64,000 bases of DNA. It comes from Pseudomonadales bacterium (GTDB lineage: Bacteria > Pseudomonadota > Gammaproteobacteria > Pseudomonadales > Ketobacteraceae). Position 1 is the stretch's first letter. The number at the start of each line of letters is the position of its first letter. The stretch lies in assembly GCA_002708905.1 (NCBI GenBank), contig PAPM01000039.1, positions 186,001 to 250,000 on the forward strand. Reading direction: 5' to 3'. The notes beneath the pieces are model-generated. The model was given only the letters and a program-made list of their open reading frames with translations. It made no database searches and was not told the DNA's origin. Positions 2,916-22,301 of the stretch are shown piece by piece. The position numbers and the translations under genes are program-made.

Positions 2916-3176
2916 ATGAAGAAGCTACTGATCGTCACTCACGCCCCCTCTGACAACACCCTGAAATTACGCGAAGCCGTCATCGAAGGGGCGCAACATC
3001 CAGACATCAGCGAAGTGGAGATTTCTGCGATTGCGCCGTTGGACGCCACCGCCGAGGACGTGCTGGCCTGCGACGCCATCATTCTGGGTACCACCGAGAA
3101 CCTGGGCTACATGAGCGGGGCACTAAAAGATTTTATTTCCTTATATACATTTAATATTAATAATTTGTTGTTTTGA
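2916..3176 (+). pseudogene. 5' fragment of a host flavodoxin-family gene, interrupted by an integrated island
   Basis: The first 72-73 codons (2916 to about 3134) encode the start of a small flavodoxin/NAD(P)H-oxidoreductase-like protein: M-K-K-L-L-I-V-T-H-A-P-S-D-N-T phosphate-binding loop, then I-I-L-G-T-T-E-N-L-G-Y-M-S-G-A-L-K-D-F. After codon 73 the sequence switches abruptly to AT-rich DNA and reads 13 unrelated residues before a stop at 3176. The missing C-terminal half continues in the same sense at 22059, about 18.9 kb away. A ribosome site (AAGGA) precedes the ATG. A complete homologue lies at 21417. The truncated product would lack half of the FMN fold and is almost certainly inactive. 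Confidence 0.9.
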
Positions 3177-3192
3177 ATCTAGGATAGGGCAC

Positions 3193-3214
3193 TATACGGA
3201 TATACATATTCACA
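3193..3214. other. Candidate recombinase-site motifs at the left island end
   Basis: Between the left junction and ginA lie TATACGGATAT (3193-3203) and, adjoining it, ACATATTCACA (3204-3214). Both have partners at the right end: ATATTCGTATA at 22041-22051 is the inverted form of the first (10 of 11 bases) and ACATATTC at 22032-22039 is a direct copy of part of the second. Shared motifs at the two ends of a site-specific island are candidates for recombinase binding arms. Low-complexity AT-rich sequence makes chance matches possible. Confidence 0.35.
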
Positions 3215-3226
3215 AGGAAAAACGGT

Positions 3227-4426
3227 ATGTCTGCCCGCGTAGTGAAACTGACTGGATTAAAGTACCGGGACACCTATTTTGATACGCTTTGGGTGATACT
3301 TGACCAGCATTCCTCCCCTCCAATCCTGCCACTTATGTATACCACCCAGTTATCACGTTTCGGGGTGGTGTATGACGCCAAAGAGTTATCCGTAGAAACA
3401 GCCCGTAAGCGAATCAAATCGCTCGAGCCGAGAGAAGTCTCCGACTCAACAATCCGTGCTTACGTATACTGCTTAGCTAAATTCTTCACCTATTTGGAGC
3501 ATTGCAAGGAGACACACCAAACACCAGGCATGCATGCCTCGTCCTCTTGTAGTGAGAAATTTGTCAATCACTATCTCAACCATGTTCTTGCCCAAAATCT
3601 TAATTCTTCCCTATCACTTAACACGCATCGTTCGGCGCTGATGTCATATTTCACCTGGTTAGCCTTTATGGAAATTAGGCCGAGTTTAAACTTGCGCATC
3701 TATCGCAAAACTCGCCAGGCTATGGCGGAAAAAAGCATCAAACAGAATTACATTCAATATGTTTCTAAATTCTGGCGATTCGCTTTATTGAACGCCTGTG
3801 AAACTCTTGCAGAAAAATTAATGATGAGGATGGGGTATGAAGTTGGACTCAGAACGTCCGAACTCAGAGGCTTGCGTGTTTCAGGGAAAAACAATCTAAA
3901 TAAGTTATTCACGCGGCTAAGTGATAGAGACTGCGATCACATTAATTGCTTTCGATATTGGCTTGAAGGGCGATATACCAAAGGCTCAAAGTCCCGCTGG
4001 GTTTATTTCGACCGAAACTTGTTAATCGACATGAAGCGTTATTTTGATACTGAGAGGCAATGGCTTATTGACGAAACAGGCAGGGACGATAACAGTTTTT
4101 TCCTTAGGACAGATCAACGTTTCAAAGGAACCGCAATTGGTGAAGAGCAAGCCAGTAGAGTTTTTCGCAAAAGAGCGGAACAAGCCGGATTAAACCCAGA
4201 GCTAAGCTTCCATGATTTGCGCCACACTTTTGCTACGGAGCTTTTTCAAGCAGAAATTGAAGGATCTGAGGGTAGGGAAACTCGTTCCGAATCTGCTGCG
4301 CTCATCGCAGTCTCACAGCGACTTGGACATAAAATAGGAAAGGATGGAAACGCTCCACCGGTCACAACCCGCTATATCCGCATGCGCCTGCAAATGATGG
4401 AATTGGAAGAGGTAACCAATGAATAG
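3227..4426 (+). CDS. ginA: Tyrosine recombinase GinA-like
   Basis: A 399-residue phage-integrase-fold protein. The catalytic set is visible: Arg209 in G-L-R-T-S-E-L, His329-x-x-Arg332-His333 in H-D-L-R-H-T-F-A-T, His368 in L-G-H-K, and Tyr383 in T-T-R-Y-I-R as the likely nucleophile. The N-terminal 160 residues form the expected DNA-binding SAM-like arm domain. The ATG at 3227 follows an AAGGA ribosome site. The gene overlaps ginB by eight bases. It is the first of the trio and the one with the most canonical active site, so I infer that it carries out strand exchange with GinC. The symbol follows the GInt operon convention and is given by position and architecture. Confidence 0.85.
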   Translation: MSARVVKLTGLKYRDTYFDTLWVILDQHSSPPILPLMYTTQLSRFGVVYDAKELSVETARKRIKSLEPREVSDSTIRAYVYCLAKFFTYLEHCKETHQTPGMHASSSCSEKFVNHYLNHVLAQNLNSSLSLNTHRSALMSYFTWLAFMEIRPSLNLRIYRKTRQAMAEKSIKQNYIQYVSKFWRFALLNACETLAEKLMMRMGYEVGLRTSELRGLRVSGKNNLNKLFTRLSDRDCDHINCFRYWLEGRYTKGSKSRWVYFDRNLLIDMKRYFDTERQWLIDETGRDDNSFFLRTDQRFKGTAIGEEQASRVFRKRAEQAGLNPELSFHDLRHTFATELFQAEIEGSEGRETRSESAALIAVSQRLGHKIGKDGNAPPVTTRYIRMRLQMMELEEVTNE

Positions 4427-6506
4427 AGACCTCGATTCTTTCATTGAAAAAGAGAGCGACTTTGCTTCAGAAGGTCTAGCCTCCCCGTTTGACACAATTA
4501 TCGCTACTCAATCTCATGATGCAATAATTAAAGCCAACAGAATCATCTACAAAACTAACTCTGGCACAAATTACGCCATTCACATCACATCAAGGACAAT
4601 CTATCACCAAGCAATATATTTTGCATTGGCGTCAGGCTTTCAGAGCGAGTGGTTTTATAGCTTAAGCAATATTTCTAAACCTATCTATTATCATGAGGCA
4701 AGAAAGTTCACCGAATGGCTCAACAGCAACACTTCGTCCGACAATAAATATCAGTGGTTAAAAGAATACGAATGTTTCGTACTAAACGAGCTTGGCAATA
4801 AAACAAGCCGTTTAGGCTACATCAATCAAATTCTCCGGGAGGGTTTAGGAAGCCCACAACTTTCACAATCTGATTTCAATTATTTGAATAGACTCCTTCG
4901 GCATTCCAAGCCAGTAAAGACGGTGGAACCTCAACCCGTAACACTATCCGAATGGTTCTCATTACCTTGGCTACGATCAATAATAGGGGAAAACACATAT
5001 CTTCAACTCGAAAGCCCTAGCAGACTATTTTTGAGCTTCCGAACAACAATTGCAGTCACACTGCAACATTTATTGAATATACGAAGAGATTGGCAGGCCT
5101 TCTCAGCACAGACCTTTGATACGGGTTATAAAGATTGGCAATACGACTGGAACCGAAAACTTATAGAGCGTACCGGCAATTTCGATTCATCGGGAAAACC
5201 TTCAGATGAACTAACTCATTTATTGTGCCTCGATCTCATTAAACCGTCCCAACAAAGCGTGTTACAAGAAATAATATCCAAATCAAAACTGAAGGAAGCG
5301 CCACTACAAAGAAGGTATGTGCGAAAGGGTAGGTCTATTTGCCCATGGCAGAAACCACTTTTCTTCCATCCTGACTACCAAACCGGTTATTCGCCCCTGG
5401 AAGAACAACTTCTAGCTTGGTTGGCAGCCTGTGAAGCTATTCAGCCTTCAGATATTCCGAAGCTTCGATCTACTGATTATGCCTTGGAATTTAACAGTTC
5501 AGGTCGCCTAATTGCTATTGAATGTAGCTACTATAAAGGACGGTCAGGTACAAATAAGAATCCACGGATATTGATAGCAAGCGATCCTTGGACAAAAGCG
5601 TTACATGATTATTTACAAGGTCTGCCGCATTCAGTTCACATATTTAAAACACCGGTAGAACAGACCGTTAAGATGCCGGGCTTGGGAAAGAATTCGAATA
5701 GACACAACTCGCTTGGTTTTTTACTACGGATATGGAAACAACCCCATATTCAGCAAAAAATTAATATGGAATTAACACGTGTCAATGCTCCCCCTCTATT
5801 TCTAACTGCGATAATGGCGCTAGAAAATGGGGACGAGTCACTCCAGCAATTTAAAAAACGGACGGGGAATGGTGCAGAAAACTACAAAAGCCTAGTTGCC
5901 AAACGCCTACCTACACACGTTTTCTCGCTCAGTCACTTGAAGAATACTGCAGTCCACGCTGGTTCCGACGCATACCGCGACTCAGACCTTATCAACCATC
6001 ACTCACACACATCGACAACTGAAAAGAATTCGTACCTGACAGACGCAAACAAAGACTTTGTGAATCGCGCAGGTCGTGTTACACGGTTAGTTTTACATGA
6101 TCTACAAAACACCGTATACCAGCCATCCGTTTTGGCAATTCAACAGGCAGTTTATGATCGAGATTTACGTACTCGCATAGTCGAAACGACCGGGACAACA
6201 GATATAGAAATCCACGCACTTGATCAACCGATTGACAACACCCCTCTTACCGATGAAATTTTGGTTCCAGACAATACTGATAATGCCCTTGTCTTTATTC
6301 ACTACATCAGAGAATCCGAACGGATGCTATCTAAACTTTTATCAGTGCGACCAGACTGGGTTGAGAGAACCTTAATCGTACAAGTAGAGTGGATGTCCCG
6401 CACATTGTCGCGTATGCGCTTTGCAAAAGCCGCTGAAGATCTCTATAAAAAACTCCAGCCCTACTTACCTCCCGTATTCGACCATTTCCTGGAGACCGTT
6501 GAATGA
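4419..6506 (+). CDS. ginB: GinB-like large recombinase-family protein, degenerate active site
   Basis: A 695-residue protein, second of the overlapping trio. The C-terminal third has the layout of a tyrosine recombinase, but the conserved positions are altered: the box-I Arg is replaced by Gln342 (A-I-Q-P-S-D-I-P-K-L-R), and the box-II region reads S-L-S-H-L-K-N-T-A-V-H instead of HxLRH. A following H-H-S-H-T-S-T-T-E-K-N-S-Y-L segment resembles the His/Tyr end of the fold. It may be a structural or regulatory partner rather than a catalyst; this is inference from the motifs. It overlaps ginC by the four bases ATGA. All four gin proteins are reported as essential for movement in studied GInts. 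Confidence 0.75.
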   Translation: MNRDLDSFIEKESDFASEGLASPFDTIIATQSHDAIIKANRIIYKTNSGTNYAIHITSRTIYHQAIYFALASGFQSEWFYSLSNISKPIYYHEARKFTEWLNSNTSSDNKYQWLKEYECFVLNELGNKTSRLGYINQILREGLGSPQLSQSDFNYLNRLLRHSKPVKTVEPQPVTLSEWFSLPWLRSIIGENTYLQLESPSRLFLSFRTTIAVTLQHLLNIRRDWQAFSAQTFDTGYKDWQYDWNRKLIERTGNFDSSGKPSDELTHLLCLDLIKPSQQSVLQEIISKSKLKEAPLQRRYVRKGRSICPWQKPLFFHPDYQTGYSPLEEQLLAWLAACEAIQPSDIPKLRSTDYALEFNSSGRLIAIECSYYKGRSGTNKNPRILIASDPWTKALHDYLQGLPHSVHIFKTPVEQTVKMPGLGKNSNRHNSLGFLLRIWKQPHIQQKINMELTRVNAPPLFLTAIMALENGDESLQQFKKRTGNGAENYKSLVAKRLPTHVFSLSHLKNTAVHAGSDAYRDSDLINHHSHTSTTEKNSYLTDANKDFVNRAGRVTRLVLHDLQNTVYQPSVLAIQQAVYDRDLRTRIVETTGTTDIEIHALDQPIDNTPLTDEILVPDNTDNALVFIHYIRESERMLSKLLSVRPDWVERTLIVQVEWMSRTLSRMRFAKAAEDLYKKLQPYLPPVFDHFLETVE

Positions 6507-9199
6507 GCACATTCAGCTCAACCATTGATGTGGTACAGGATGATCTCGCCGATCTTCAAGCCCTCCTAGATGCATTACCTGGTTCCAATGACAATACCTT
6601 TTCAGATAATTCATGGAGATTCAAAACCTCTAAGGGTTATGAAACCATTATCGACTTCGAGAGCTTTTCCACTTTATCCAATGACTATCCTGAATGGTCT
6701 CAAAGTCGTGGTGTCGATTTGATATTTGTCACCAAAAGGGTTTGGCTCTCGCTGATAGAATCCGCTACCGAGAACTTATACGCAACCAGGTTATCTGGGT
6801 TGGGGCGATTATGGACTGCTTTCGCTCGGAATGGCATAGATAAACTCACAAGGGATAACATTACAGAAGTAATTGTTTTCATTCTCACCCATCAGTGGCA
6901 CCAAGGTCGCGCTATAAAAAGCAACACAGTAAAAACATATGTTCATTTTTATCAAACGTTACCGCTTCAGCAGCTAAAGTGGGCTCTGGAAGAGATAGGT
7001 ATTGCGTGGATTAGTAGAGATATTACAGAGGCCGTCGTCAAGAAGTATTTGAAACAGATCATTCCTGAGTTAACTGATGAAGCACTAACCTACCGAGATT
7101 GGTTTGAAGGCGGCAGTTTTAACCTACTCACATTAGATTATGGGCGATTTTACGTAGAGCACTGCCTCAACTTCTTTAACAAACATGTCCTAATCGCTAC
7201 AGCCCTGGCAAGGACGTATCGAGCAATACCTGAGATTGCAGCCAGACTAAACTACGACCACAAGACAGTAAGTTATTTGGCTCCTCGAATACTTCAAGAC
7301 TATTCGCTGGAGGAGCTACAAAGCCAACTCAATAATTGGTCAAAAAACACAATACAAAGAGTCCATGAACATGTCCGTAGCCACTATACAAATGCTTATC
7401 GCGAAGCGCTATTCGCGGAACTTCTAATCAGCGACTCAGGAATAAACTGCTTGTTAACCACATGCGGTATAAAAAACTCGCACGAAAATATAGATCGCAT
7501 GCGGGTTATTATATGGGATTATCTACAACACAATAACAAACAGGAAACCAAACAGCTTTTGGAACAATGCGACACTCCGGTATCGTGGAAACTTTTTTCC
7601 CGACACATCAATGATACTTATCAACATTGCTGCCTAGAGGCTTGTAATCCACCTGATCGAACCGACTACGAGAATATAGGCTTATTCGAGCCAAACTCTA
7701 TAAAAGATGCAGCAAGAAGCTATCCGCGGCAACTTATTAAACTCGTAGAGGCGGCTGGTCTAACCAGTTTTGTCGCATTAACAGGGTGGCGCAAAAGTGA
7801 ATTCGGATTTCCTTTTTCAGCAATTAAGCAATCAGTCAACATCGATAAACTTGACGAGTATGCTTTTCCGTTCCGATTCGAAGTGGATTGGCATATCTAT
7901 AAAACCCACGGCAAAATTCGACAGCTTCGAGAAATCACTTTCAGCACCGCTGTTATAGCAAAACAGTTGCAAACATTAATCGGAGTCGATAATGATCGTC
8001 CTTGCTTATACGACACCACGCCAAGCAAACGTAATCTCCACGAATCTGGCTATAAGGTGAGCTATGCGGTTATCGGACTGTGGGAACATTATGTGCAACA
8101 TTACCCAGGCTTCAAAATGATTGACGACTATCAATGCTGGCAAAAGATAGTTGAATATGAAGCCGAAGGTCATCCGCTGACAATTAATCAGCAATGTCAG
8201 AAAGCACGTCTTCTCAGTTTACGCTCAGAAGATGAGTGGAACGATATTAAGATCGACGGCAATCTCAAAGAAGCATGGTTAAAATGCCGAGAGGAATGGC
8301 CTCGGTTGGAGTTTTCTTCATACGGAAGACACCTGCGAGCAAAAAAAGACTGGTTAGCCAGATATCGCAACAATAGTTTGCGATCAGATTGGTCTGAGTT
8401 GCTAGACAAACACCTATCACAGGAGACAAAGGATTGGATCACCTCACTAACCGATGATGAATGCCGTTCCCCAGTGGTCGCAAAGACAGTATTGAATGAA
8501 TTGCTAACAGATACGCTGTATCCGAGCCCTCACGCCTTTCGGCATATGTGGGCGGAAGCGATATACAGACGATTTGATGGTGACGCAGGCTGGATGATTA
8601 GAAGCCAGTTTAAGCACATTAGCCGCACCATGTGGTTGGCTTATATTAGAGACAAAAGCAATCGCCGAGGCCATCAGCGAGCTAAAACTCAAGTCATTAG
8701 CTCCTTGGTACAGAATTATTTAAACAACAAAACAGAGGGTTACGCAGGCCAGCTACACGTTTGGTTACGTCGGCTTTTCAAAAAAACATCCGTAATGACA
8801 GCGCAAGAACAATTGCAATTCGCTAATCGGATAGCTACCAAAGAGATCGAAGATATAAAAGCCAACCCCTGGGGCTACTGCCTACTGAAGCGTCGTACCC
8901 GACAGAAGGCAAAGTGCGCTGAGATGGGTGAGCCAATGAGACACAATGCATCCCCTGAACTGTGCCTGGGATGCATTCACAATCTGATGCAGACCGACAA
9001 TGTAGAGTGGTCCATACTGCACATTCACACACATGTAGAAGCATTAAAGAACCCTGTCGTTCCAGACGTTTTTAAAGCCTCTTCTTACGAATTGGTTAAA
9101 AACGTTACACGTCATGTCCGAACATTGAACTCCAACCATGAAGCGCTGCCAGAACTAGATACAGTGTTGAATAACTATAAGCTACAGAGGGCGAAATAA
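6503..9199 (+). CDS. ginC: GinC-like very large tyrosine recombinase
   Basis: An 898-residue protein with a recombinase catalytic domain embedded in its second half: Arg430 in T-G-W-R-K-S-E-F, His677-x-x-Arg680-His681 in H-A-F-R-H-M-W-A, and Tyr714 in M-W-L-A-Y-I-R. A long insertion of about 240 residues separates box I from box II, and an extra C-terminal region contains cysteines (S-P-E-L-C-L-G-C-I-H, and further upstream K-C-A-E-M) that could bind metal. The stop overlaps the ginD start by one base (TAATG), so the four genes form a tightly coupled operon. Confidence 0.8.
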   Translation: MSTFSSTIDVVQDDLADLQALLDALPGSNDNTFSDNSWRFKTSKGYETIIDFESFSTLSNDYPEWSQSRGVDLIFVTKRVWLSLIESATENLYATRLSGLGRLWTAFARNGIDKLTRDNITEVIVFILTHQWHQGRAIKSNTVKTYVHFYQTLPLQQLKWALEEIGIAWISRDITEAVVKKYLKQIIPELTDEALTYRDWFEGGSFNLLTLDYGRFYVEHCLNFFNKHVLIATALARTYRAIPEIAARLNYDHKTVSYLAPRILQDYSLEELQSQLNNWSKNTIQRVHEHVRSHYTNAYREALFAELLISDSGINCLLTTCGIKNSHENIDRMRVIIWDYLQHNNKQETKQLLEQCDTPVSWKLFSRHINDTYQHCCLEACNPPDRTDYENIGLFEPNSIKDAARSYPRQLIKLVEAAGLTSFVALTGWRKSEFGFPFSAIKQSVNIDKLDEYAFPFRFEVDWHIYKTHGKIRQLREITFSTAVIAKQLQTLIGVDNDRPCLYDTTPSKRNLHESGYKVSYAVIGLWEHYVQHYPGFKMIDDYQCWQKIVEYEAEGHPLTINQQCQKARLLSLRSEDEWNDIKIDGNLKEAWLKCREEWPRLEFSSYGRHLRAKKDWLARYRNNSLRSDWSELLDKHLSQETKDWITSLTDDECRSPVVAKTVLNELLTDTLYPSPHAFRHMWAEAIYRRFDGDAGWMIRSQFKHISRTMWLAYIRDKSNRRGHQRAKTQVISSLVQNYLNNKTEGYAGQLHVWLRRLFKKTSVMTAQEQLQFANRIATKEIEDIKANPWGYCLLKRRTRQKAKCAEMGEPMRHNASPELCLGCIHNLMQTDNVEWSILHIHTHVEALKNPVVPDVFKASSYELVKNVTRHVRTLNSNHEALPELDTVLNNYKLQRAK

Positions 9200-9714
9200 T
9201 GGTTATGGAATACCTGAAAAACAAAGCAAAGAGCAAACCAGCAACAAACGAAACGAAGCTCCCAGACTGGGTATCCAAATCTAATTCAAGCTTCAAAGCA
9301 TGGCAGTACGTTGAAGAGCTTAAAAAAGAGAAGAGCCTCTATATCAAACGGCACCACAAAGCGACTGACTTTCTGACTAAGAAAACTCACCAGATCAAAG
9401 GTTCAGATATCGCTAAAGCACTGTGTATTAGCAGGGCTTCGCTAATGAACACCTCTAGTTATTCAGAAAGTTTCCGGCAGTACCTTGAAAAGGTCAACAG
9501 AGAGCTCGAAGAGGCAAAAAACGCAAAGCTTAAAAATACTAGCCAGTCGGCTTCTCGTGGATCTATCAGAAACAGAAAGGACGAACTGATGACGATGAAC
9601 ACCGACCTAAAGAAACGGCTATCAGCGTTAGAAAATCAGAAGACCGAAGAGCTGGTACGTTACGCGTTTGACCAGCTTCCACTTAACATTAAGAGAAAAC
9701 TCGGGCTATCTTGA
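9199..9714 (+). CDS. ginD: GinD-like small coiled-coil/HTH protein
   Basis: A 171-residue charged protein. Residues 70-95 (K-G-S-D-I-A-K-A-L-C-I-S-R-A-S-L) look like a helix-turn-helix. The flanking regions are lysine/glutamate-rich and likely coiled-coil, including a heptad-like stretch after residue 125. It resembles the small accessory proteins (TnpC/DUF6262 type) that accompany multi-recombinase elements, and sits where GinD sits in GInt operons. The gene begins at the ATG that shares a base with the ginC stop; a second in-frame ATG at 9205 is also possible. Its role in DNA binding or recombination directionality is inference. Confidence 0.7.
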   Translation: MVMEYLKNKAKSKPATNETKLPDWVSKSNSSFKAWQYVEELKKEKSLYIKRHHKATDFLTKKTHQIKGSDIAKALCISRASLMNTSSYSESFRQYLEKVNRELEEAKNAKLKNTSQSASRGSIRNRKDELMTMNTDLKKRLSALENQKTEELVRYAFDQLPLNIKRKLGLS

Positions 9715-9742
9715 GGTGCATAGAATTGCCCAATTCATGCTT

Positions 9743-9758
9743 TACAAATTAACTGAAC
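9743..9758. repeat. Left copy of imperfect direct repeat flanking the IS481-like element
   Basis: TACAAATTAACTGAAC lies directly before the left inverted repeat of the insertion sequence, and TACAAATTAACCGAAT is at 11032-11047 just after its right end: 14 of 16 positions agree. It could be an aged target duplication or a pre-existing repeat. Confidence 0.55.
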
Positions 9759-9795
9759 TAGTCACGACAAAATCTGACACTATCCTTTGAAAAAA

Positions 9796-9858
9796 GGTGA
9801 GTTACCAACTTTGATTAACGGTGCGACCCAATCAATCAAAGCAAAAAGGTAACTCACC
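9796..9858 (+). promoter_or_regulatory. Long hairpin covering the transposase ribosome binding site
   Basis: GGTGAGTTACC (9796-9806) pairs perfectly with GGTAACTCACC (9848-9858), and inside it CTTTGATT (9809-9816) pairs with AATCAAAG (9834-9841). The right arm contains the AAGG ribosome site and ends at the base before the transposase ATG at 9859. A transcript that reads in from outside would fold this structure and hide the start, a known way insertion sequences avoid activation by outside promoters. The folding is seen in the sequence; the regulatory role is inferred. Confidence 0.65.
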
Positions 9859-10893
9859 ATGAATCAATATAACCAAAGAATCATTAATAACAAACTCGGA
9901 TTACTGAATTTAGCTGAAGAGTTAGGAAACATCTCCAAGGCTTGCCAGGTAATGGGTGTATCACGAGATACGTTTTATCGATACAAAGAGGCCCATGAAT
10001 CTGGGGGTGTCGAAGGTCTTTTAGACAAAAATAGACGCAAACCCAATACTAAAAATCGAGTCGACCCAACGATCGAAAGCGTGGTTGTGAAATACGCAAC
10101 TGATTTTCCAGCACATGGCCAACACCGAGCAAGCAATGAACTACGTAAGCTCGGTGTGTTTGTATCCGGTGGCGGCATACGTTCTATTTGGCTCCGCCAT
10201 GATCTTGAAACCTTTAAAAAGCGCTTAAGTGCGTTGGAGAAGTTGGTAGCCGAGGAAGGTCTTATACTGACTGAAGACCAACTCACAGCACTCGAGAGGA
10301 AGCAGGAAGAAAAGCAAGCTCAAGGTGAAATAGAAACGGAACATCCTGGTTATCTTGGCTCTCAAGATACTTTCTATGTAGGTACTTTCAAAGGGGTTGG
10401 CCGTGTTTACCAACAAACGTTTGTCGACACCTACAGCAAAGTCGCTCATGGCAAAGTTTACACTACCAAGACACCGATCACCGCTGCAGATTTATTAAAT
10501 GATCGAGTTTTACCATTTTATGAGGAGCATGATCTCCCGGTGCTTCGCATTCTGACGGATCGGGGAACCGAGTATTGCGGCAAAGTGGAGAAACACGATT
10601 ACCAGTTGTTTCTCGCTATTAATGGCATTGAGCATACCAAAACTAAAGTCAGACATCCTCAGACCAATGGAATCTGCGAGCGATTTCATAAAACTGTACT
10701 CGATGAGTTTTACAAAATAGCATTGCGAAAAAAGATTTATCACTCACTGGATGAATTACAGGTTGATCTCGATGATTGGCTTAATCAATATAATTTCGAG
10801 CGAACTCACCAAGGCAAAATGTGTTGTGGTAGAACGCCAATTCAAACCCTCGTTGAGGGGAAACAAATTTGGAAGGAAAAGTGCTTAAACTAA
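9859..10893 (+). CDS. IS481-family transposase
   Basis: A 344-residue DDE transposase. Residues 1-60 form a helix-turn-helix (I-S-K-A-C-Q-V-M-G-V-S-R-D-T-F-Y-R-Y), followed by a second winged-helix-like region, then an rve integrase core. The acidic residues fit: D in F-V-D-T-Y-S-K-V, D in L-T-D-R-G-T-E-Y-C-G and E in N-G-I-C-E-R-F-H-K-T. The C-terminal Y-N-F-E-R-T-H-Q-G-K segment is the usual IS481 ending. The frame is intact, so it may be active. Translation is probably limited by the hairpin directly upstream. Confidence 0.92.
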   Translation: MNQYNQRIINNKLGLLNLAEELGNISKACQVMGVSRDTFYRYKEAHESGGVEGLLDKNRRKPNTKNRVDPTIESVVVKYATDFPAHGQHRASNELRKLGVFVSGGGIRSIWLRHDLETFKKRLSALEKLVAEEGLILTEDQLTALERKQEEKQAQGEIETEHPGYLGSQDTFYVGTFKGVGRVYQQTFVDTYSKVAHGKVYTTKTPITAADLLNDRVLPFYEEHDLPVLRILTDRGTEYCGKVEKHDYQLFLAINGIEHTKTKVRHPQTNGICERFHKTVLDEFYKIALRKKIYHSLDELQVDLDDWLNQYNFERTHQGKMCCGRTPIQTLVEGKQIWKEKCLN

Positions 10894-11031
10894 ACTTGAT
10901 CTTTCAATACAGCCGCTGAAGCGGTATAAAGTGATGGCGCAGAGCAAATCACTTTGTACCGGTGAAGTGGCCAACAAGCAAAGCGCGTTAGTCTTCAAAA
11001 GTTGGTAACTGTCAGATCAAGTTGTGACTAC

Positions 11032-11047
11032 TACAAATTAACCGAAT
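11032..11047. repeat. Right copy of imperfect direct repeat flanking the IS481-like element
   Basis: TACAAATTAACCGAAT, one base after the right inverted repeat, matching 9743-9758 at 14 of 16 positions. Its last base is the first base of the stop-proximal end of the TrlF-like gene. Confidence 0.5.
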
Positions 11048-14112: not shown

Positions 14113-14128
14113 TACATTGTCCTCGGTC

Positions 14129-15349
14129 TTATTTTTTGGCTATCTTAATGAGCTTGACTTCGTTTTGGTCATATTTGTACTCGCTTAATGTTCCATCCTT
14201 AATCTTCTCCACAACCTCATCAACGATAAACAGCGGCACTAAAAACCATTCTCTGGGTATCACTGGCTTGCCAAAGCGGTCATTAATTTGAATATCAAGT
14301 TTGGCGGACTCAAAAAAGCGGTGCAGGATGTTTTCGAGTTTTGTTCGGCTGATATTGTACAACTCATAAGTTGCTACAATTTCCACGTCAGCCATTAAAT
14401 AGGTTGGGTCTTGTTTGGCGTTGGCTATGCGTGTTTTAACGCTGCCGCCAGTTACACCTATTTTATGGATCAAGTTTCGGTTTTCGGCGATGGTTGGGTG
14501 GTCTAACTTGCTGCGAAGCACATAGATTGTTCCGCTGGCGGTGTCTTCTTCGCCAGCAATACTGTCGAATAATGGGCCAGCAGAAAGGGAAATAATGCGT
14601 CTGCTCGCATCATCTACATACAGCGCTTTTTGCATGGATCGAAGAAGCAAATCGCTCTCGGTTTTGTTATCGAAGATAACGCGAAGCCTGTAATCATTCT
14701 TATCAAAGCCGTGAATACGCTCTTTGCTGATTTCAGCGATATAGGCTTTTTGTCCGTTGACGATGAACCAATCTCCTTGATTGATTTCTGCCATTGTCGC
14801 TTGGCCTTTCTGGTTTTTGAGTATCTTGGCTTCGAGTAAACCACGGGTGAGTTGATCTTGTACTTGATCGAACAACGGTTTGAATTTGTCGAAGTCGGCG
14901 CAAGTCGTTCGGCTGGCAATTTCCTCTGCGGCTCGTACCTCTGCACGAGGTTTAACGTGCTTCAGAAAGGTCACGTCATGTTCTTTGGGAGCATCTACAC
15001 CCAACTCGGCAAGCAGCTCTGCATCGCTTTTGTATTCCTTTGTTGGCTCGGCAATGGCATGTTCTGAGGCAAGTAAACCTTGATGGTCTAACTCTGCTAC
15101 CAGATTATTACATTCATCCAGTGAACGAATGCGGTCTAGGCGCGTGGCGTATATGCGCTCAAAAATGTCTTTGTCTTCGCCGTGCTGTGGATGGTGCCCA
15201 TGCTCTTCAACAAAGCGCTGTATCTCTTCAAAGCCTGCGATGATGCGCTCTTCTTTAGGGGTATGGGTAACTTTTTTAGCTGGGGCAATATCAACACCCA
15301 ACTCCTCAAGTAACGCTTTATTGGATTTACGCTCTTTGGTATCAGCCAT
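14129..15349 (-). CDS. GIY-YIG nuclease-family protein (T5orf172-like C-terminus)
   Basis: A 406-residue protein. The N-terminal half is acidic and contains a duplicated short motif (L-L-E-E-L-G-V-D-I-A-P near residue 14 and L-L-A-E-L-G-V-D-A-P near residue 113), probably helical adaptor segments. The C-terminal part from about residue 265 has the GIY-YIG variant fold: I-Y-V-L-R-S, then H-K-I-G-V-T-G-G-S-V-K-T-R-I and a later E-N-I-L-H-R-F-F with the likely catalytic Glu. The ATG overlaps the helicase stop by eight bases. It is probably the nuclease component of the methyltransferase/helicase system; that assignment comes from context. Confidence 0.75.
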   Translation of the reverse strand: MADTKERKSNKALLEELGVDIAPAKKVTHTPKEERIIAGFEEIQRFVEEHGHHPQHGEDKDIFERIYATRLDRIRSLDECNNLVAELDHQGLLASEHAIAEPTKEYKSDAELLAELGVDAPKEHDVTFLKHVKPRAEVRAAEEIASRTTCADFDKFKPLFDQVQDQLTRGLLEAKILKNQKGQATMAEINQGDWFIVNGQKAYIAEISKERIHGFDKNDYRLRVIFDNKTESDLLLRSMQKALYVDDASRRIISLSAGPLFDSIAGEEDTASGTIYVLRSKLDHPTIAENRNLIHKIGVTGGSVKTRIANAKQDPTYLMADVEIVATYELYNISRTKLENILHRFFESAKLDIQINDRFGKPVIPREWFLVPLFIVDEVVEKIKDGTLSEYKYDQNEVKLIKIAKK

Positions 15350-17393
15350 TATTTTCCTCCGCTACTTTGCGAGCAAGGAAAGCAATGCCCTCAGCCATGC
15401 GTTTTTCCCACGGGTCGGGCGATGTTAATTCCGGCAATCTTCCACGTTCTTTTTTGAACTTAATAGCGCGGTCTACCAAATCTCTCGCCTCTTCCTCTGT
15501 CATCGTTACTTTCTTGGCTGCGATAACGGCGGCTACCTGCTTCAGACTTTCCTCGCTCATGGATTTCGCCAAGATCGCGTAGGCTTCGCTGAAGGGGTTA
15601 ATGCGGTCGATTAAATCTATATCTAGGTCGCGCACATCCATCGCATATTTTCTCACGCCGTCCACAAAGGCGGTGCTGCCACCACGTTCGGCATCATTGC
15701 CTTGATTGACAATCTCTTTTGCTTTTTGGGTAAGGTTTAAGGCGGCTATAGCGTGTTGACGGATGGCTTCTTGGTCTTCGTCATCCAGCTCTGGGTATTT
15801 GTCTTTAACAATCTTGCCCATGCGAACCTGTGTTAATTCTTCAGGAATCATTTCTTCATCGAAGAGGCCGCGTTCCAGCGCGGTTTTATCCTGCACGAAG
15901 GCGGTAATTACCTCGTTTAAATCCTCCTGACAGATACGCTGTGCATCTGGGCTTTTGGGTTCGGCAAGCCCTTTGATCTCAATTTGAAATTGCCCTGTAG
16001 CTTCATTGAAGCCTACATTGTTGCCGTTGGGGTCGTAGCCATTCTCGCCGTAGTCAAAGCCCTCTACTGGAGCGCTTTGTGCGTTCTTGGGCGTGAAGTT
16101 AAATCGTGGGGCGAGTACCTGCTCCATGAGCAAGCTAGCGGCAATGGCTTTTAAGGTATCGTTCACTGCATCGGTAACGGCTTCTTCCGAAGCGTCCGGC
16201 TCTGCGATCAGGTTGGTAAAACGCGCATGAGTTTTGCCTTTGGCATCACGTGTGGCGCGACCAATGATCTGAATAATTTCAGTGAGGCTGGAGCGATAAC
16301 CTACGGTTAAAGCGTGTTCACACCATATCCAGTCGAAGCCTTCTTTCGCCATGCCAAGCGCGATGATAATGTCTACATGATCGCGATTGTGTTTTGCTTC
16401 TGGCAATTTTAGCGAGGCAGATACTTTGTCGCGTTTGCTTGGGTCATCATCTACCAAGTCGGCAATTTTTATGGTTCGCCCATCGGCTGCTTGTACCAAG
16501 TGAAAGCCCGTGGCTGGGTCTGTGCCAAGCCAGTTACCCAGCTCTTCGATGATATGTTCCACTTCCTTGATTTTATCTTTCGTGCTTTCACGGGAATTCA
16601 CGTTGGGGATGTGGATAATGGTTTTTTCGTTTGGGTTTAATACGCTGAGAATGTCATCCGCATATGAACCAGAATAAAAGTAGTAGCCAATATCTAAAGT
16701 TTTTAAATACTCGTAACCGTTAAGCTGCTCGTAGTAGGTATAAGTCACCGTATCGAAATTAGCCTCATCTTGTGGGGATAGAACGGCTTCAGCATCACCT
16801 CTGAAATATGAGCCAGTCATGGCGATGATATGCACTTTATTACGGGCAATAAATTGTCCTAATTGTGCGCCTAAGCGATTGTCTGGATTTGCGCTAACGT
16901 GGTGGAATTCATCAACAGCGATCAAGCAGTCATCAAAAGCAGGTACGCCAAACTTATCAACAGCAAAGCGGAATGTGGCGTGAGTGCAAACCAATACTTG
17001 GCCGTCGCTTTCCAAGAACGCATTAACAGAATTAACCTTGCCGCCATCCTCTCCGGGGGCATTGCACAAATTCCATTTCGGGGCTACTTCCCAATCCCAA
17101 TAGAAACCGTATTGGCTTAACGGCTCGTTATTGAAACTCGCACCAATGGATTTTTCAGGTACAACAATGATGGCTTTTTTAATGTTTTGGTTATGCAGCT
17201 TATCCAGCGCAATAAACATCAATGCGCGGCTTTTTCCAGACGCAGGCGGCGACTTAATCAGAAGATATTGTTCGCCCCGTTTTTCGTAGGCTCGTCCCTG
17301 CATGACGCGCATACCCAGCTCATTGGATTTTTTCGAGCTGCCGTTACAGGCATAATTTACTGAAACAGAGGGGATGGATTTATGTTCCGTCAT
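15342..17393 (-). CDS. DEAD/DEAH-box (superfamily 2) helicase of a restriction-like system
   Basis: A 683-residue SF2 helicase. Walker A S-P-P-A-S-G-K-S is at residues 48-55, motif II reads V-D-E-F-H-H, motif III-like M-T-G-S-Y, and motif VI I-I-G-R-A-T-R-D. The C-terminal 200 residues are helical and charged and have no motif I recognise. It starts two bases after the methyltransferase stop and overlaps the GIY-YIG gene, so all are co-transcribed. Such helicases translocate on DNA in Type I/III-like restriction systems; here it probably serves the adjacent methyltransferase and nuclease. Confidence 0.82.
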   Translation of the reverse strand: MTEHKSIPSVSVNYACNGSSKKSNELGMRVMQGRAYEKRGEQYLLIKSPPASGKSRALMFIALDKLHNQNIKKAIIVVPEKSIGASFNNEPLSQYGFYWDWEVAPKWNLCNAPGEDGGKVNSVNAFLESDGQVLVCTHATFRFAVDKFGVPAFDDCLIAVDEFHHVSANPDNRLGAQLGQFIARNKVHIIAMTGSYFRGDAEAVLSPQDEANFDTVTYTYYEQLNGYEYLKTLDIGYYFYSGSYADDILSVLNPNEKTIIHIPNVNSRESTKDKIKEVEHIIEELGNWLGTDPATGFHLVQAADGRTIKIADLVDDDPSKRDKVSASLKLPEAKHNRDHVDIIIALGMAKEGFDWIWCEHALTVGYRSSLTEIIQIIGRATRDAKGKTHARFTNLIAEPDASEEAVTDAVNDTLKAIAASLLMEQVLAPRFNFTPKNAQSAPVEGFDYGENGYDPNGNNVGFNEATGQFQIEIKGLAEPKSPDAQRICQEDLNEVITAFVQDKTALERGLFDEEMIPEELTQVRMGKIVKDKYPELDDEDQEAIRQHAIAALNLTQKAKEIVNQGNDAERGGSTAFVDGVRKYAMDVRDLDIDLIDRINPFSEAYAILAKSMSEESLKQVAAVIAAKKVTMTEEEARDLVDRAIKFKKERGRLPELTSPDPWEKRMAEGIAFLARKVAEENNG

Positions 17394-17395
17394 TT

Positions 17396-20171
17396 TCAGG
17401 ATACCTTCTTCTTGCCATTCGTTTTATTTGATGGCGTTGTCATTTTTGTATAGAGGTCGAAGAGCTTTTCTAGGCGCTCTGTATCATTCTTAAAGCGACG
17501 GCCAATGTAGATGCGTTCCAACACTTCGTCATTGCGCTCATGGGCATGACGCAAGTCTGCTGGCATTTTATCAGGGTTATAAAGGTCTGCTATTGTTGCA
17601 GGGAAGTGCGCTTCACGCGCTAGAAGAATATCCTCAGCGCAACGCGTTAGGTCTTCCTTGTTTTTTTCAGTAAGTTTGGGAACGGGAAATGTGTTCCATC
17701 CCATCGTGTTTGAATATCGAAAATCAGTTTTTAGCTTTCCACAAACTGTAGCGATCCAAACCAAATGAATACGCGAAGCTATTAACGACATGTTCCATAG
17801 AGGGGCATCAAAAAGGGCGAAGCAAAGATTAGTAACAGTTGACTTATTATCAATCAAACCAACGGGAAGATACTCTCGATTTTCAGACGAAACACAGGGC
17901 ATGGCAATTGAATGAACCTTGCCAATATTCATTTCACGCATTTGATGTGACCGAGAAGCCATATCGTTCGCACTTTTATCGGGGCTAGATAGCCTTATGG
18001 CTCGAACGGCATGTATTCTCTTCTGAATAGCGAGTACATTTTCGGCTTCCTCAAGATTTTCGTCTTCTATCCACAAACAGTAGCGTTGCAATCCCCTTAT
18101 AAATTCCGCTGAACCATAAATTTGACGAATAAATTTAGCTCTCTGTTCTTGTGTAAGCTGTAAAGCCGAAAGCTCTTGCCTGGATAAAAGAAGATTGCCG
18201 CCATCAACGGGTTTATTCCCAAACTTCATTTCTGATAATTGCGTCATTGGTTTTGACGATTTTCTAACAATTACGTTTGCACCTGAAACTAAATATGAAT
18301 TTATATTTCCTACAGATTTTTCTATAGTTTCATTCTCATCGGACATAGAAAAAAGACGACGATTCATTCCTGCTTGATTAGAGATTCCTATGATTGCAAC
18401 TGTAACACCTGCATTATGGCTGGCTAGATTAGCCCACTTAAAAGAGGTATGAGCAAAGCTAATTTCATGCCCTGTGTCAAAAATAAGAGGCCATATAATT
18501 GGAACTTGTTGCCCTTGGCAAATTGAGTTGGTACTTACAAAAGCACTCGCAGAATTAGTGTGTTCACCATATTCGGCTGCCTTCATAAACCACCCAGACA
18601 CATAGTCAAGTGATTTCCAACTTTTTGTTTTACCCTTAAAAATCTTTTCCAAATCAGATTTTTGTTCTTTCGATTGCCATGTACTTCCTAGATACGGTGG
18701 ATTGCCACAGATGTAGGTTTCACCACCTTCGTTTTCAAAATCTACTTCGGCTTGATTTGTAGGAGTGCTGAAAAGATCATCTCCAACTAATTTGACCGTC
18801 TTCCCCGTTGGGGGGCAAACAGATAGCCAATCAATTTCCAAAGCATTGCCAGAAGTAATCCAATTTTCTGTATCTAGCGGAAGAAACTCAGCAAGGGCGA
18901 GCTTTTGCCCTCGGTACAATACGTCGCATTGATATTCAGCAATAATTAAAGCCAATCGTGCAATTTCAGCCGGAAAGTCGCGCAACTCAATACCACGAAA
19001 GTTAGTTAACGGAATATCTGTTGGGCGGTCTTTCTCGCCCCGAAGCTCGTTAATCTTTGCCTCGATTTCTCGCATTTGCTTATAAGCAATAACCAGAAAA
19101 TTTCCCGAACCACAGGCAGGATCAAACACGCGAATATTGGACATGCGTTTACGCAGGTTTAATAGCTTTCGTGGGTTATCTTCTGCTTGTTCCAACTGTT
19201 CGCGTAGATCATCCAAAAAGAGCGGATTTAGTACCTTTAAGATGTTGGGAACGCTGGTGTAGTGCATTCCCAATGCGCCACGTTCTTCGTCATCTGCCAC
19301 GGCCTGAATCATTGAGCCAAAAATATCAGGGTTGATTTGCTTCCAGTCCAACGTGCCTACGTGGAAAAGATAAGAACGGGCAATTTTGGTAAAGCGTGGT
19401 ACTTCTGTGCTACCAGAAAATAAGCCACCGTTAACATAGGGAAAGCCATCTGCCCATGAGCGGATGTTTTCTTTTTTGCGGTCTGCGGTTTTGGTATTCA
19501 TTGAGCGGAAGATTTCGCTAATCACCTCATGGGTGTTCGAGGAATCTTTCGCGCTCATCTGTTCGATGGTGGCAGTAAACAAGTTATCGCCATTGAAAAT
19601 GTCGGTGTCTTCCGCGAAGAAGCAGAATATCAGCCGCGCCATAAAGTGGTTCATATCGTGGCGGCGTTCTGACGTACCCCAATCGGGGTTGTTTCTTAGC
19701 AGCTCTACATACAAGCGGTTTAAGCGGCTGGTTGCCCGTATATCAAAGGTGTTGTCACGGATTTGTTTAACGGTGGTAATGCCAGCCAATGGCAGAAAAA
19801 AAACCAAAGTGATTGGGGAAGTCTTTGTAATCGCAAGCAACCGTTTCGCCTGAAGCAAGATCTTCCGCCTCAAGGTTGATGCCATCGGTTGCCAATATGA
19901 ATTTGGCTTTGGCTTTAGTCGTTGCAGGGCTGGCTTTGAGTGCATTCAAAGAGGCGGTGACTTCGCCCTCAGCACACACAGCAATATGGATATTGCTGCG
20001 CTGTAATACTCCGCCCTCAACATCTGAAGCGTTGGTCGCGCCACTTTGCAGTCGCTTGATTGTGGTTGCCTTGTTGCCAAACGCTTCCAAAAAGGCATAG
20101 GGGAAGCTCGCCGCGTCAAATGCTTGCTCGGCTAGGTTACTAATGGCTTCTTCTATCTCTACTGCGTTCAA
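17396..20171 (-). pseudogene. MmeI-like adenine DNA methyltransferase, split by a +1 frameshift in an 8-base homopolymer
   Basis: Two overlapping frames make one protein. Codons from a TTG at 20171 encode residues 1-125, ending N-H-F-G-F-F; the continuation L-P-L-A-G-I-T-T-V-K-Q lies in the next frame and runs to 17396 (about 799 residues more, about 924 in all). The switch falls at a run of eight A on the plus strand (19796-19803, eight T in the mRNA sense); seven would restore the frame. The main frame holds SAM motif D-P-A-C-G-S-G-N-F and catalytic N-P-P-Y. The first frame alone stops after nine extra residues. It may be a true mutation, phase variation, programmed slippage or a sequencing error. 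An internal start such as the one at 19945 could make a truncated enzyme. Confidence 0.85.
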
Positions 20172-20177
20172 CGGTGC

Positions 20178-20375
20178 TTACCCTTTATCATTATTGTCTT
20201 TGCTGCTGGTTTTCTTCTCTTCTATCCAACGTTCTATATCAGTCTGTTTAAAGCGCCAGCTACCGCCCACCTTAAAGCCTGGCAGCTTACCTTCGGCTGC
20301 CAAGCGGTAGGCGGTCTTCTCGGCGAGCTTTAGGTAGTCAGCCACCTCTTTGAGGGTCAATATTTCATCAGTCAT
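20178..20375 (-). CDS. Small helix-turn-helix protein (excisionase/AlpA-like fold)
   Basis: A 65-residue DNA-binding protein: L-T-L-K-E-V-A-D-Y-L-K-L-A-E-K-T-A-Y-R helix-turn-helix followed by the G-S-W-R-F-K-Q-T-D-I-E-R-W-I wing, typical of the MerR-like 'excisionase family' group. It is the first gene of the leftward defence operon; its last codons carry the AAAGGG ribosome site of the methyltransferase start at 20171. It may control the operon, perhaps via the palindrome at 20460, or act as a directionality factor for the island. Both roles are inference. Confidence 0.85.
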   Translation of the reverse strand: MTDEILTLKEVADYLKLAEKTAYRLAAEGKLPGFKVGGSWRFKQTDIERWIEEKKTSSKDNNDKG

Positions 20376-20459
20376 TTATACTGTCCAAACACCCGTTTTG
20401 GTGAGAGAATAGGGGAAAATTGAGGAATTGGCAACCGAACGAAATGCTATTGAAATGCC

Positions 20460-20478
20460 ATTGTCTTATCTAGACAAT
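20460..20478. promoter_or_regulatory. Candidate operator palindrome upstream of the defence operon
   Basis: ATTGTCT-TATCT-AGACAAT, a perfect 7-base inverted repeat with a 5-base spacer, 85 bases upstream of the HTH gene start. Position and symmetry suit a repressor site for the operon's HTH protein or for the Xre-like antitoxin. No protein has been shown to bind it. Confidence 0.45.
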
Positions 20479-20756
20479 GCACAGTTATTGAAAGAGTTTA
20501 GGGAGTGAGAGCACATCTGTGGTGAATTATAAATTATCTCGATTTATGCATGGTTTGCATAATTACGCGCCCGACAGGTAATTCTGAAAAAACATAAAAA
20601 AACAATGGTATACATTAAATTTCCGATTCCGGGACTATACACAACTTAACCTTGAATCGTGCTGCTCATTGAAGCTTTCATATCAAGCCATGCTGGCTGC
20701 ATACGCATAAATTAGTTACATTCAAGCTTTTTCAAACGCCTCAAATCGCGGATAAA

Positions 20757-20778
20757 CTCTACCTCAAACCTTGGTATT
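20757..20778. repeat. Direct repeat, copy 1, downstream of the antitoxin gene
   Basis: A 22-base sequence beginning CTCTACCTCAAACCTT; 20 of 22 bases match 21287-21308. The two copies bracket the 136-residue antitoxin gene, making a unit of about 530 bases. Confidence 0.6.
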
Positions 20779-20796
20779 GGAGTTGCGCAGCCACGA

Positions 20797-21207
20797 CTAA
20801 TAGTAAGCACCGCTATACTGGGTTTCCAGGTACCTGCGTACATCAGTCATTCCAGCAACATCACCCTGAAGCATCCACTCTAAAGCAGACTTTCCTTGAA
20901 ACTGGCTATTCGGCTTATGAACCCAGCCTCTCCATTGCTCCGAGCCTGAAAATATCCCTTGTACGCTCTTATAAATCCCAGCAATGAGAGACAATCGCTG
21001 TAAAGTGCTGGGCGTTATAGTAACCGGTTCATTTTTATCTACCTGCCGATTCCACCCCTCCATTATTTCTGCGCTCTCCACCCCGGCAAGTTGGCAGCTT
21101 TGCTCTGCCGTTAATTCCCACTCATCCGCGATTCGCAAAAACAGCTTTGCCGCAACTCTATTGATTTCGGCATCACTTATAGAGTCGATTGAATTACGCT
21201 TGTTCAT
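20797..21207 (-). CDS. Xre/MbcA/ParS-type antitoxin-like protein, no partner toxin
   Basis: A 136-residue protein. The first 80 residues are helical with a degenerate helix-turn-helix (E-Q-S-C-Q-L-A-G-V-E-S-A-E-I). The C-terminal third has the toxin-binding domain pattern of the DUF2384 family: R-L-S-L-I-A-G-I-Y-K-S-V, then W-R-G-W-V-H-K-P-N-S-Q-F-Q-G-K-S-A-L-E-W-M-L-Q-G-D-V. Partners are normally RES-domain NAD+-degrading toxins encoded next door, but none lies on either side. It may be an orphan that neutralises related toxins or a remnant of a pair. It is flanked by 22-base direct repeats. Confidence 0.75.
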   Translation of the reverse strand: MNKRNSIDSISDAEINRVAAKLFLRIADEWELTAEQSCQLAGVESAEIMEGWNRQVDKNEPVTITPSTLQRLSLIAGIYKSVQGIFSGSEQWRGWVHKPNSQFQGKSALEWMLQGDVAGMTDVRRYLETQYSGAYY

Positions 21208-21286
21208 CTATTCTGCTGCTCATTTATCTCAGAACTTTCCCGAATATACCCGATAAACCATAATGCATTACAGCGAGCTTAGCTTT

Positions 21287-21308
21287 CTCTATCTCAAACC
21301 TTAGTATT
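21287..21308. repeat. Direct repeat, copy 2, upstream of the antitoxin gene
   Basis: A 22-base sequence beginning CTCTATCTCAAACCTT; differs from 20757-20778 at two positions. It lies about 80 bases upstream of the antitoxin start and about 110 bases before the intact flavodoxin gene. Confidence 0.6.
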
Positions 21309-21416
21309 TTGATTTATCAAAGAAGGGTGGTTAAAGTCTAGCGTAGAGGTAGCCCTGCTTCGCGGGTTTCATTTATTGGATGAATTTTCTAACAGCATGA
21401 AGGCTTGGTGCCAATA

Positions 21417-21887
21417 ATGATGAATCGCAAAAAACTCTTAATAATCGCCCATGCCCCATCTGAGAATACCAAGAAGATGGCTGATGCAGTAGTGAAAGGT
21501 GCTACCAACCCTGAAATCGAGGATGTAGAAGTGGTGAGCAAAGCGCCACTCGACACCCAGCCTGACGACATCATTACAGCGCAAGCCGTCATTATCGGTA
21601 CAACCGAAAATCTTGGGTACATGGCAGGGTTGGTTAAAGATGTATTCGACAGATGCTACTATCCATGCTTGGAGAAAACACAGGGCTTTCCGTTCGCCTT
21701 TTATATTCGAGCTGGACACGATGGCACTGGTACACAACGAGCAATTGAAAGCATCACAACTGGATTGCGATGGCGGTTAATACAGGAGCCGCTAGTTTGC
21801 CGAGGAGATTTTCAGGAAGAATTTCTATCTCAGTGTGAAAACCTTGGCTTATCTGTTGCTGCAAGCTTAGACGCTGGCATTATTTGA
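21417..21887 (+). CDS. Intact flavodoxin-family protein carried by the island (homologue of the disrupted host gene)
   Basis: A 156-residue flavodoxin-like NAD(P)H oxidoreductase. The phosphate loop is H-A-P-S-E-N-T-K-K-M near residues 9-18, followed by G-T-T-E-N-L-G-Y-M-A-G-L-V-K-D-V-F-D, the flavin-ring segment R-A-G-H-D-G-T-G-T and the C-terminal L-D-A-G-I-I. It matches the interrupted host protein along its whole length, but the DNA differs at many silent sites and at the insertion core (AAAGATGTATTCGAC here). Starts at 21417 or 21420 are both possible; the former is used. It is the last gene before the right island end and reads in the same direction as the disrupted gene, as expected for a functional replacement. 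Confidence 0.85.
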   Translation: MMNRKKLLIIAHAPSENTKKMADAVVKGATNPEIEDVEVVSKAPLDTQPDDIITAQAVIIGTTENLGYMAGLVKDVFDRCYYPCLEKTQGFPFAFYIRAGHDGTGTQRAIESITTGLRWRLIQEPLVCRGDFQEEFLSQCENLGLSVAASLDAGII

Positions 21888-22058
21888 AGAATCGAACGCG
21901 ACAGGATGCTTAATTGGCAACTGATTCTGTGATTTTTCGTCGTTGAGAAAACGTTGCTGAAAATTGTTGTCGCTCATTTCAGCTAAAATACTGCAAATAA
22001 CAAGTGGCCGAGACATCCGACAACAAAATTCACATATTCCATATTCGTATAATTGCCC
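21888..22058. other. AT-rich non-coding right end of the island
   Basis: 171 bases without a gene, ending where the host flavodoxin resumes. It contains the inverted pair TTGTTGTCG (21965-21973) and CGACAACAA (22019-22027), and close to the junction ACATATTC (22032-22039) and ATATTCGTATA (22041-22051), which have counterparts at the left end. This matches the short AT-rich 3' end of GInts and probably holds the attachment-site arms. Confidence 0.55.
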
Positions 22059-22301
22059 TTTGATCGAATCTATTACCCCTGCCTGGAAATAAAACAGGGC
22101 TTGCCGTTTGCCCTGTATGTGCGTGCCGGACACGACGGCACCGGCACCTGCCGCGCCGTAGACACCATCATAACAGGCTTGCGTTGGAAAGCAGTGCGGG
22201 AACATCTGGTGTGTCGCGGCGAATGGAATGAAGACTTTGTAGACCAATGTCGTGAGCTGGGAACCACTGTGGCCATGAGCCTGGAAGCGGGCATCATTTA
22301 A
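22059..22301 (+). pseudogene. 3' fragment of the interrupted host flavodoxin-family gene
   Basis: From the TTT at 22059 the frame reads F-D-R-I-Y-Y-P-C-L-E-I-K-Q-G, includes R-A-G-H-D-G-T-G-T-C-R-A, and ends S-L-E-A-G-I-I before the stop at 22299-22301. Joined to the 5' piece at 2916-3134 it restores a protein of about 153 residues, the size of the island copy. Codon choice is GC-rich like the 5' piece and unlike the island copy. Its last eight bases overlap the convergent anti-sigma gene. Confidence 0.9.

Follow-up and report, generated by a model that had tools for sequence, protein, structure and literature searches.

How can a mobile element insert in the middle of a bacterial gene and still be tolerated by its host? 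The question is raised by an island in a Pseudomonadales bacterium (assembly GCA_002708905.1, contig PAPM01000039.1, positions 186,001 to 250,000; this whole stretch of 64,000 nt is referred to below as the window, and positions are counted from its first letter). The island splits a flavodoxin-like gene and carries a complete, divergent homologue of it. Judging from sequence comparison, we consider it probable that this is an island whose site-specific insertion is tolerated thanks to the replacement homologue that it carries.

The split gene and its carried homologue

The host gene is cut after codon 73 and its 3′ fragment resumes in frame at codon 74, so that no codon is lost. The island proper occupies positions 3135-22058, that is 18.9 kb including two 6-nt spacers. 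The initial annotation, made from the letters and a list of open reading frames, had recognized the split and the distance between the pieces, and both stand; the span that it gave, 2916..22301, contains the split gene and corresponds to the outer gene ends, not to the island itself. The empty site, which the annotation had proposed to look for, is present in a genome of the same genus, G002 (G numbers denote genomes of the comparison set and L numbers fetched loci). Here the two host pieces align to a single uninterrupted gene (L172), abutting at 5744/5745, with DNA identities of 79.9% and 83.7%, and a GST gene upstream of the flavodoxin locus is common to both genomes. The cut lies inside a predicted helix (residues 70-84) of the protein, and neither half should therefore fold alone.

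The intact homologue lies in the same orientation as the host gene and ends 171 bp inside the right end of the island (Table 1). Its product is 63% identical to the 3′ part and 52% identical to the 5′ part of the host protein. As had been noted at the outset, the two cores differ, KDVFDR (Val core) in the carried protein and KDFFDR (Phe core) in the host protein, and the two fall into separate clades in our tree. Although the flavodoxin-like protein scores under the Pfam and NCBIfam cut-offs, its AlphaFold model (pLDDT 95), whose best PDB match is the flavodoxin 2ark (Foldseek E 2.5e-10, TM 0.80), predicts a flavodoxin fold.

A homologue search of the window's own genome gave three matches: the two host fragments, with E-values of 1.5e-22 and 3.8e-33 which exclude chance, and the carried copy. 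It thus returned no close host copy elsewhere that might make the carried one unnecessary. Nor was the carried allele found at an island-free locus in the same genus: the five genomes searched each have one homologue, all with a Phe core.

These observations suggest the following scheme. A four-gene tyrosine-recombinase operon would direct the element to a single site within the flavodoxin-like gene, AAAGAT-TTYTTY-GATCG, located near the middle, so that the fold is broken inside a helix. The insertion would be tolerated through the complete carried homologue, which comes from another lineage and whose core, GTATTY instead of TTYTTY, would no longer match the site. We infer that the carried protein restores the lost flavodoxin activity, that selection retains the copy for that replacement, and that the carried core escapes the recombinase, which would refuse it.

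At the right junctions read, 6 nt separate TATAA or TATAG from TTNGA in 8/8 cases, and all three left junctions have the Phe-type core, the left end of L171 being one base longer. TTATA is the only clearly common part of the terminal repeats of the element. A preference for GATCG at the site (6/7 junctions vs 43/91 Phe-core genes, p 0.046, the decayed L196 excluded) was too weak to be retained. The regions preceding the right ends of L040, L193, L195, L196 and L201 have in common a sequence with CGCTTTGCGACCGG, and a short reversed part of this shared sequence (GCGAACATTC) follows carried-type tails in L192 and L194.

Recurrence of the carried copy and related operons

A genome scan, from which the best 80 of 576 relatives were kept, revealed an intact homologue together with a separate 3′ fragment at two loci among those 80. 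The first (L040) belongs to Marinobacter aromaticivorans D15-8P, in which the 5′ fragment, on another contig, enters a homologous operon at the same codon. The four operon proteins are 68/51/51/64% identical to those of the window and the cargo differs. This island carries its own intact KDVFDR copy. The second (L053), from a gammaproteobacterial metagenome-assembled genome, includes an intact KDVFDR copy immediately ahead of the right end, a placement close to that of the carried gene described above (174 bp from stop codon to motif end vs 165 bp in the window). The right-end motif ATATTCGTATAA is common to all three. The search for target homologues in related islands, suggested by the initial annotation, yielded two further Val-core copies. 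Two other candidates were rejected as islands, G010 because of a frameshift and G059 because its second match is weak.

In the tree (136 rows, L029 and L033 having been dropped), the three carried copies fall inside a 35-row clade (support 100/99) with the core KDVFDR, or KDLFDR in two rows. Two of the host genes lie outside it: that of the window groups with its G002 counterpart (100/93) and the M. aromaticivorans fragment with other Marinobacter genes, while the L053 host fragment forms a long branch of uncertain placement. The nearest relatives of the carried copies are Pseudomaricurvus genes for the window, M. daepoensis for M. aromaticivorans and Arenicella for L053. A single clade of the three carried copies is rejected (approximately unbiased test, p 0.004), which implies either at least two separate acquisitions of the copy or its later exchange.

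Homologous operons also occur at other sites. None of five such elements (in G308, G375, G334, G158, presumably at another site, and plasmid locus L180) includes a flavodoxin gene in the stretches fetched. For the elements in G493, G484, G257, Methylobacter and Shewanella, carried flavodoxins were sought by genome-wide searches only. The element of G334 (L181-L183, C1:2052500-2110000) splits rarA at about codon 111 and extends over 24 kb; it also includes a trio of restriction genes (938, 685 and 396 aa) which, by eye, resembles that of the window. On the plasmid (NZ_CP152381.1, conjugative, from Marinobacter sp. SBY-1), class A beta-lactamase genes, qnrVC1 and an integron integrase are neighbours of a sister element. 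In searches with the recombinase proteins, plasmids gave two relatives of the first and three of the third, none of the first turned up in viral contigs, and a class-wide search of 369 genomes at E 1e-25 returned the window's own element only.

Chimeric genes in Marinobacter and the alternatives

A homologue match, fragments counted, is present in 119 of 124 Marinobacter genomes (108 of the 110 good ones). Besides M. aromaticivorans, a flavodoxin 3′ fragment adjoins the right end, sometimes worn, in G426, G437, G484, G375 and, decayed, in G465. Together with the window and L053, eight genomes therefore have the right end at a flavodoxin fragment, and a separate carried copy is present in three of them. 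The codon of insertion is shared by several genomes, and wherever the assemblies extend far enough the two gene fragments are both retained. In G437 and G465 an open chimeric gene, with a host front and a carried-type tail, is located at recA. In G437 and G484, lon is found behind the 3′ fragment. The G375 locus is cut by contig ends: two contigs (L184, L201) end in the same flavodoxin stretch, one with an intact front and the other behind the right end, which may represent either a mixed population or a chimera plus a fragment.

In the four chimeras measured (L054, which is the G437 locus, L064, L074 and L077), native-type sequence gives way to carried-type sequence around columns 91-106, and their tails, taken by blocks of 15 columns, share 78-100% DNA identity with the carried gene of M. 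aromaticivorans vs 50-69% with the native gene L110. Among the 40 Marinobacter loci of the scan, six have a carried-type tail and 31 a native one; L040, L050 and L078 were left out of the chimera count. The gene normally found downstream, lon, is displaced in five of the six chimeras vs two of the 31 native-tail loci (Fisher p 0.0003, in a post hoc test with kinship uncontrolled). Two other arrangements were observed. In G439 (L198, C110:132000-150000, order recA-flavodoxin-lon) the gene has, by eye, a carried-type core, a native tail and native neighbours and there is no island, as if the island had been lost by recombination. In M. daepoensis only a Val-core copy was found, 10 kb from recA, with no native gene or fragment. 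Separately, the single assembly G493 contains two native-type flavodoxin genes (L199, L200), each beside lon, a possible contamination.

The chimeras probably arose by recombination of a carried copy with an intact native gene of like orientation, located on a chromosome that had lost the island or never had it. After a single crossover between them, the host front would be joined to a carried tail and followed by the island's right part, right end and the 3′ fragment, whereas the left end and the operon would be lost. No recombinase of the window's family was found in G437 or G465, which fits this predicted loss, and G484 has a broken one on another contig. In G426, the tail of the fragment behind the right end (L190, L191) is of the carried type and lon is absent from the nearest 8 kb, as though a chimeric gene formed earlier had been hit by another element.

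A broader proposal, which we regard as doubtful, is that the element rewrites its target: it would enter Phe-core genes and supply a Val-core gene devoid of the site, and recombination would then rebuild the locus as chimeras and close some lineages, such as G439, to entry. If true, the carried gene would be a replacement, a homology arm and a vaccine against reinsertion.

How far, then, does the carried copy pay for the insertion by restoring the disrupted function, as the initial annotation had it? Sequence supports that reading in part: it bears out the split gene, the empty site, the lack of a second close copy in the genome, the carried homologue with its different core, and its recurrence, while the restoration itself is presumed. 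Several other observations weigh against it. For G426, where the two ends of the split gene are present, no intact copy turned up, although its contigs break at that point, and the chimera of G484 at recA is frameshifted. A family search identified three distant Flavodoxin_1 proteins in the window's genome, which might cover the function. A promoter scan upstream of the carried gene gave nothing above chance, and dS is saturated in pairs with the window's copy, so that dN/dS is unusable and the constraint on this copy can be judged only roughly. The M. aromaticivorans copy is inverted and lies 7 kb inside the right end, in an island spread over two contigs; for L053, the left half lies off the contig and no operon of the window's family was found in the genome. 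Finally, no second rarA is present in the 57.5 kb fetched for G334, and carriage of the target is thus not general for these operons.

Some of these points would equally be expected if the carried flavodoxin were ordinary cargo, or the leftover of an earlier host, with no advantage linked to the insertion: the G426 insertion lacking a detectable copy, the variable position and orientation of the copy within the island, the additional flavodoxin-family proteins and the different lineages nearest to the three copies, as random capture predicts. We nevertheless judge this unlikely. An intact carried copy accompanies three of the four non-chimeric insertions at the flavodoxin site (window, M. aromaticivorans, L053 and G426) vs none of the five related elements elsewhere, in the stretches fetched, and random capture of exactly the target gene three times is improbable. 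It is very unlikely that the carried gene is mainly a homology arm or an immunity device, through which RecA would rebuild the locus and leave an allele without the insertion site. The carried-type tails of the chimeras and the island-free G439 gene between recA and lon, with its carried-type core and native tail read by eye, would suit such a role, but the six counted chimeras have Phe cores (by the definition used) and hence remain targets, one chimera seems to have been entered anew in G426, and any homologous copy could lead to rebuilding of the locus as a side effect. Least probable of all is a restoration of the kind seen at tRNA genes, in which the island would bring only a replacement 3′ part and, as it enters, make the gene whole again at the left end: G437, G484 and G465 do look this way, with a seemingly rebuilt gene at recA and a displaced 3′ fragment behind the right end, but the 5′ fragment continues directly into the left end and first recombinase gene in the window, in M. 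aromaticivorans and in G426, the chimeras switch about 20-30 codons beyond the fragment start, and G437 and G465 lack a detectable recombinase of this family.

Organization of the element and comparison with known systems

The recombinase operon, located after the left end, comprises four genes in which every neighbouring pair overlaps (Table 1; recombinase motifs were identified by visual inspection of four aligned homologues). Among the cargo, the MmeI-type gene occupies two overlapping frames and looks broken in this genome.

Table 1. Features of the island and of the split host gene (window positions).
Feature	Position	Strand	Basis or remark
Host flavodoxin-like gene, 5′ fragment (codons 1-73, ending AAAGATTTT)	2916..3134	+	joined to 3′ fragment, groups with same-genus G002 gene (100/93)
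Left junction: 6-nt spacer ATTTCC and left end TTATATACATTTAATATT	3135..3158		similar left end in M. aromaticivorans (L171)
First recombinase, tyrosine recombinase, 399 aa, full R-H-R-H-Y set	3227..4426	+	Pfam PF00589, E 4.6e-17; motifs by eye
Second recombinase-like protein, 695 aa, degenerate (HxxK, no first Arg)	4419..6506	+	no Pfam/NCBIfam match; motifs by eye
Third, large recombinase-like protein, 898 aa (TGWRxSE, HAFRH, KH, Y)	6503..9199	+	no Pfam/NCBIfam match; motifs by eye
Fourth operon gene, small protein, 171 aa, GinD/Srap position	9199..9714	+	conserved in homologous operons
IS481-family transposase inside the island	9859..10893	+	NCBIfam NF033577, 290.5 bits vs cut-off 224
Cargo: SMC/AAA-like ATPase, 1021 aa	11047..14112	-	Pfam SMC_N E 6e-7, below cut-off; PADLOC Ppl E 6e-16
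Cargo: T5orf172/MUG113 domain protein	14129..15349	-	Pfam, over cut-offs
Cargo: DEAD/ResIII helicase-like protein	15342..17393	-	Pfam; ResIII over cut-off, DEAD just under
Cargo: MmeI-type restriction-modification enzyme, two frames (17396-19945, 19767-20171)	17396..20171	-	Pfam MmeI domains; PADLOC REase_MTase_IIG 935 bits
Cargo: small HTH_17 protein	20178..20375	-	Pfam, over cut-off
Cargo: Xre/MbcA/ParS antitoxin-like protein	20797..21207	-	Pfam PF09722, over cut-off
Carried intact flavodoxin-like gene, Val-core allele (KDVFDR), 155 aa	21420..21887	+	homologue search, tree, AlphaFold model
Right end ATATTCGTATAA and 6-nt spacer TTGCCC	22041..22058		same motif before flavodoxin 3′ fragment in L040, L053, L190, L193, L201
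Host flavodoxin-like gene, 3′ fragment (from codon 74, starting TTTGATCG)	22059..22301	+	in frame with codon 74

With its four-gene tyrosine-recombinase operon, the element appears to be of the SE/GInt sort, and we assign it to neither family. Like GInts, it has a 5′ operon of three recombinase-like genes and a small gene, followed by cargo, a short AT-rich right end and high site specificity (PMC5385486). The degenerate recombinase is third in GInts and second in SEs (PMC5385486, PMC10214605). In GInts the first two proteins have the RHRHY set and the third, GinC, lacks the first Arg (PMC5385486); in the window it is the second that lacks it and the third looks complete, by eye. The gene order is thus SE-like, and indeed the SE arrangement intA (RHRY), tfp (no RHRY), a large intB (RHRY) and srap matches the 399/695/898/171 aa series, with motifs read by eye. 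SEs are further characterized by a 6-bp spacer next to imperfect inverted terminal repeats and by strand-biased formation of a circle with no empty site. The label GInt of the initial annotation is insecure, given the second position of the degenerate protein. Kinship with SEs is limited to a weak IntA match to the pAQU1 element (hhalign probability 9, E 0.0037; one reference), and an attempt to name the element through this reference SE gave no useful protein similarity. Carried target copies do not appear in the consulted excerpts of the GInt account, save for a remark on a duplicated nrd gene (PMC5385486).

The principle of carrying a copy of the target is already known from two other systems. 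The first is that of the recA mobile elements (RME). In Vibrio cholerae S24, a 32.8-kb island in recA carries a divergent recA, and both its mobility and UV protection were demonstrated (PMC4405046); V. parahaemolyticus 090-96 has a similar recA island (PMC4334540). These islands of about 30 kb resemble the one described here in lying at a fixed site inside one gene with both fragments kept, and in having a complete divergent homologue (23-24% different) at one end and an integrase towards the other (PMC4405046, PMC4334540), and the V. cholerae cargo likewise includes a restriction-modification gene (PMC4405046). In contrast, their target is recA (PMC4405046, PMC4334540), and for RME experiments addressed the circle, the empty site, integration into recA on a plasmid and the protection of Escherichia coli against UV (PMC4405046). 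A hybrid recA was suspected from PCR in V. parahaemolyticus and attributed to the insertion (PMC4334540). The second system, SE-6283/Tn6283 and relatives, inserts in bcp and carries bcp; compensation was proposed and growth data were reported (PMC5991714, PMC9345347). It shares with our element the four-gene tyrosine-recombinase operon, the carried target copy and, apparently, the 6-bp spacers, and differs in its target (PMC5991714, PMC9345347). Islander-type islands that split tRNA genes also bring sequence that lowers the cost of insertion, but restore the gene at the junction, whereas the window has a whole divergent gene elsewhere in the island (PMC4383910).

No report of a flavodoxin target for such an island was found in the open-licence literature, nor, in the excerpts available there, a description of the recombinant target genes that such islands leave. 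What is new here is the flavodoxin target, the recombinase lineage and the recombinant genes. Such elements may reshape ordinary genes, and the recA-adjacent Marinobacter chimeras would mislead gene trees. With the Phe-core and Val-core alleles, one could readily test whether the copies that islands carry are selected because the recombinase does not see them. Together with recA and bcp, the flavodoxin site suggests that carriage of a target copy is a strategy to which recombinase-operon elements have turned repeatedly, the copy having been gained more than once or exchanged.

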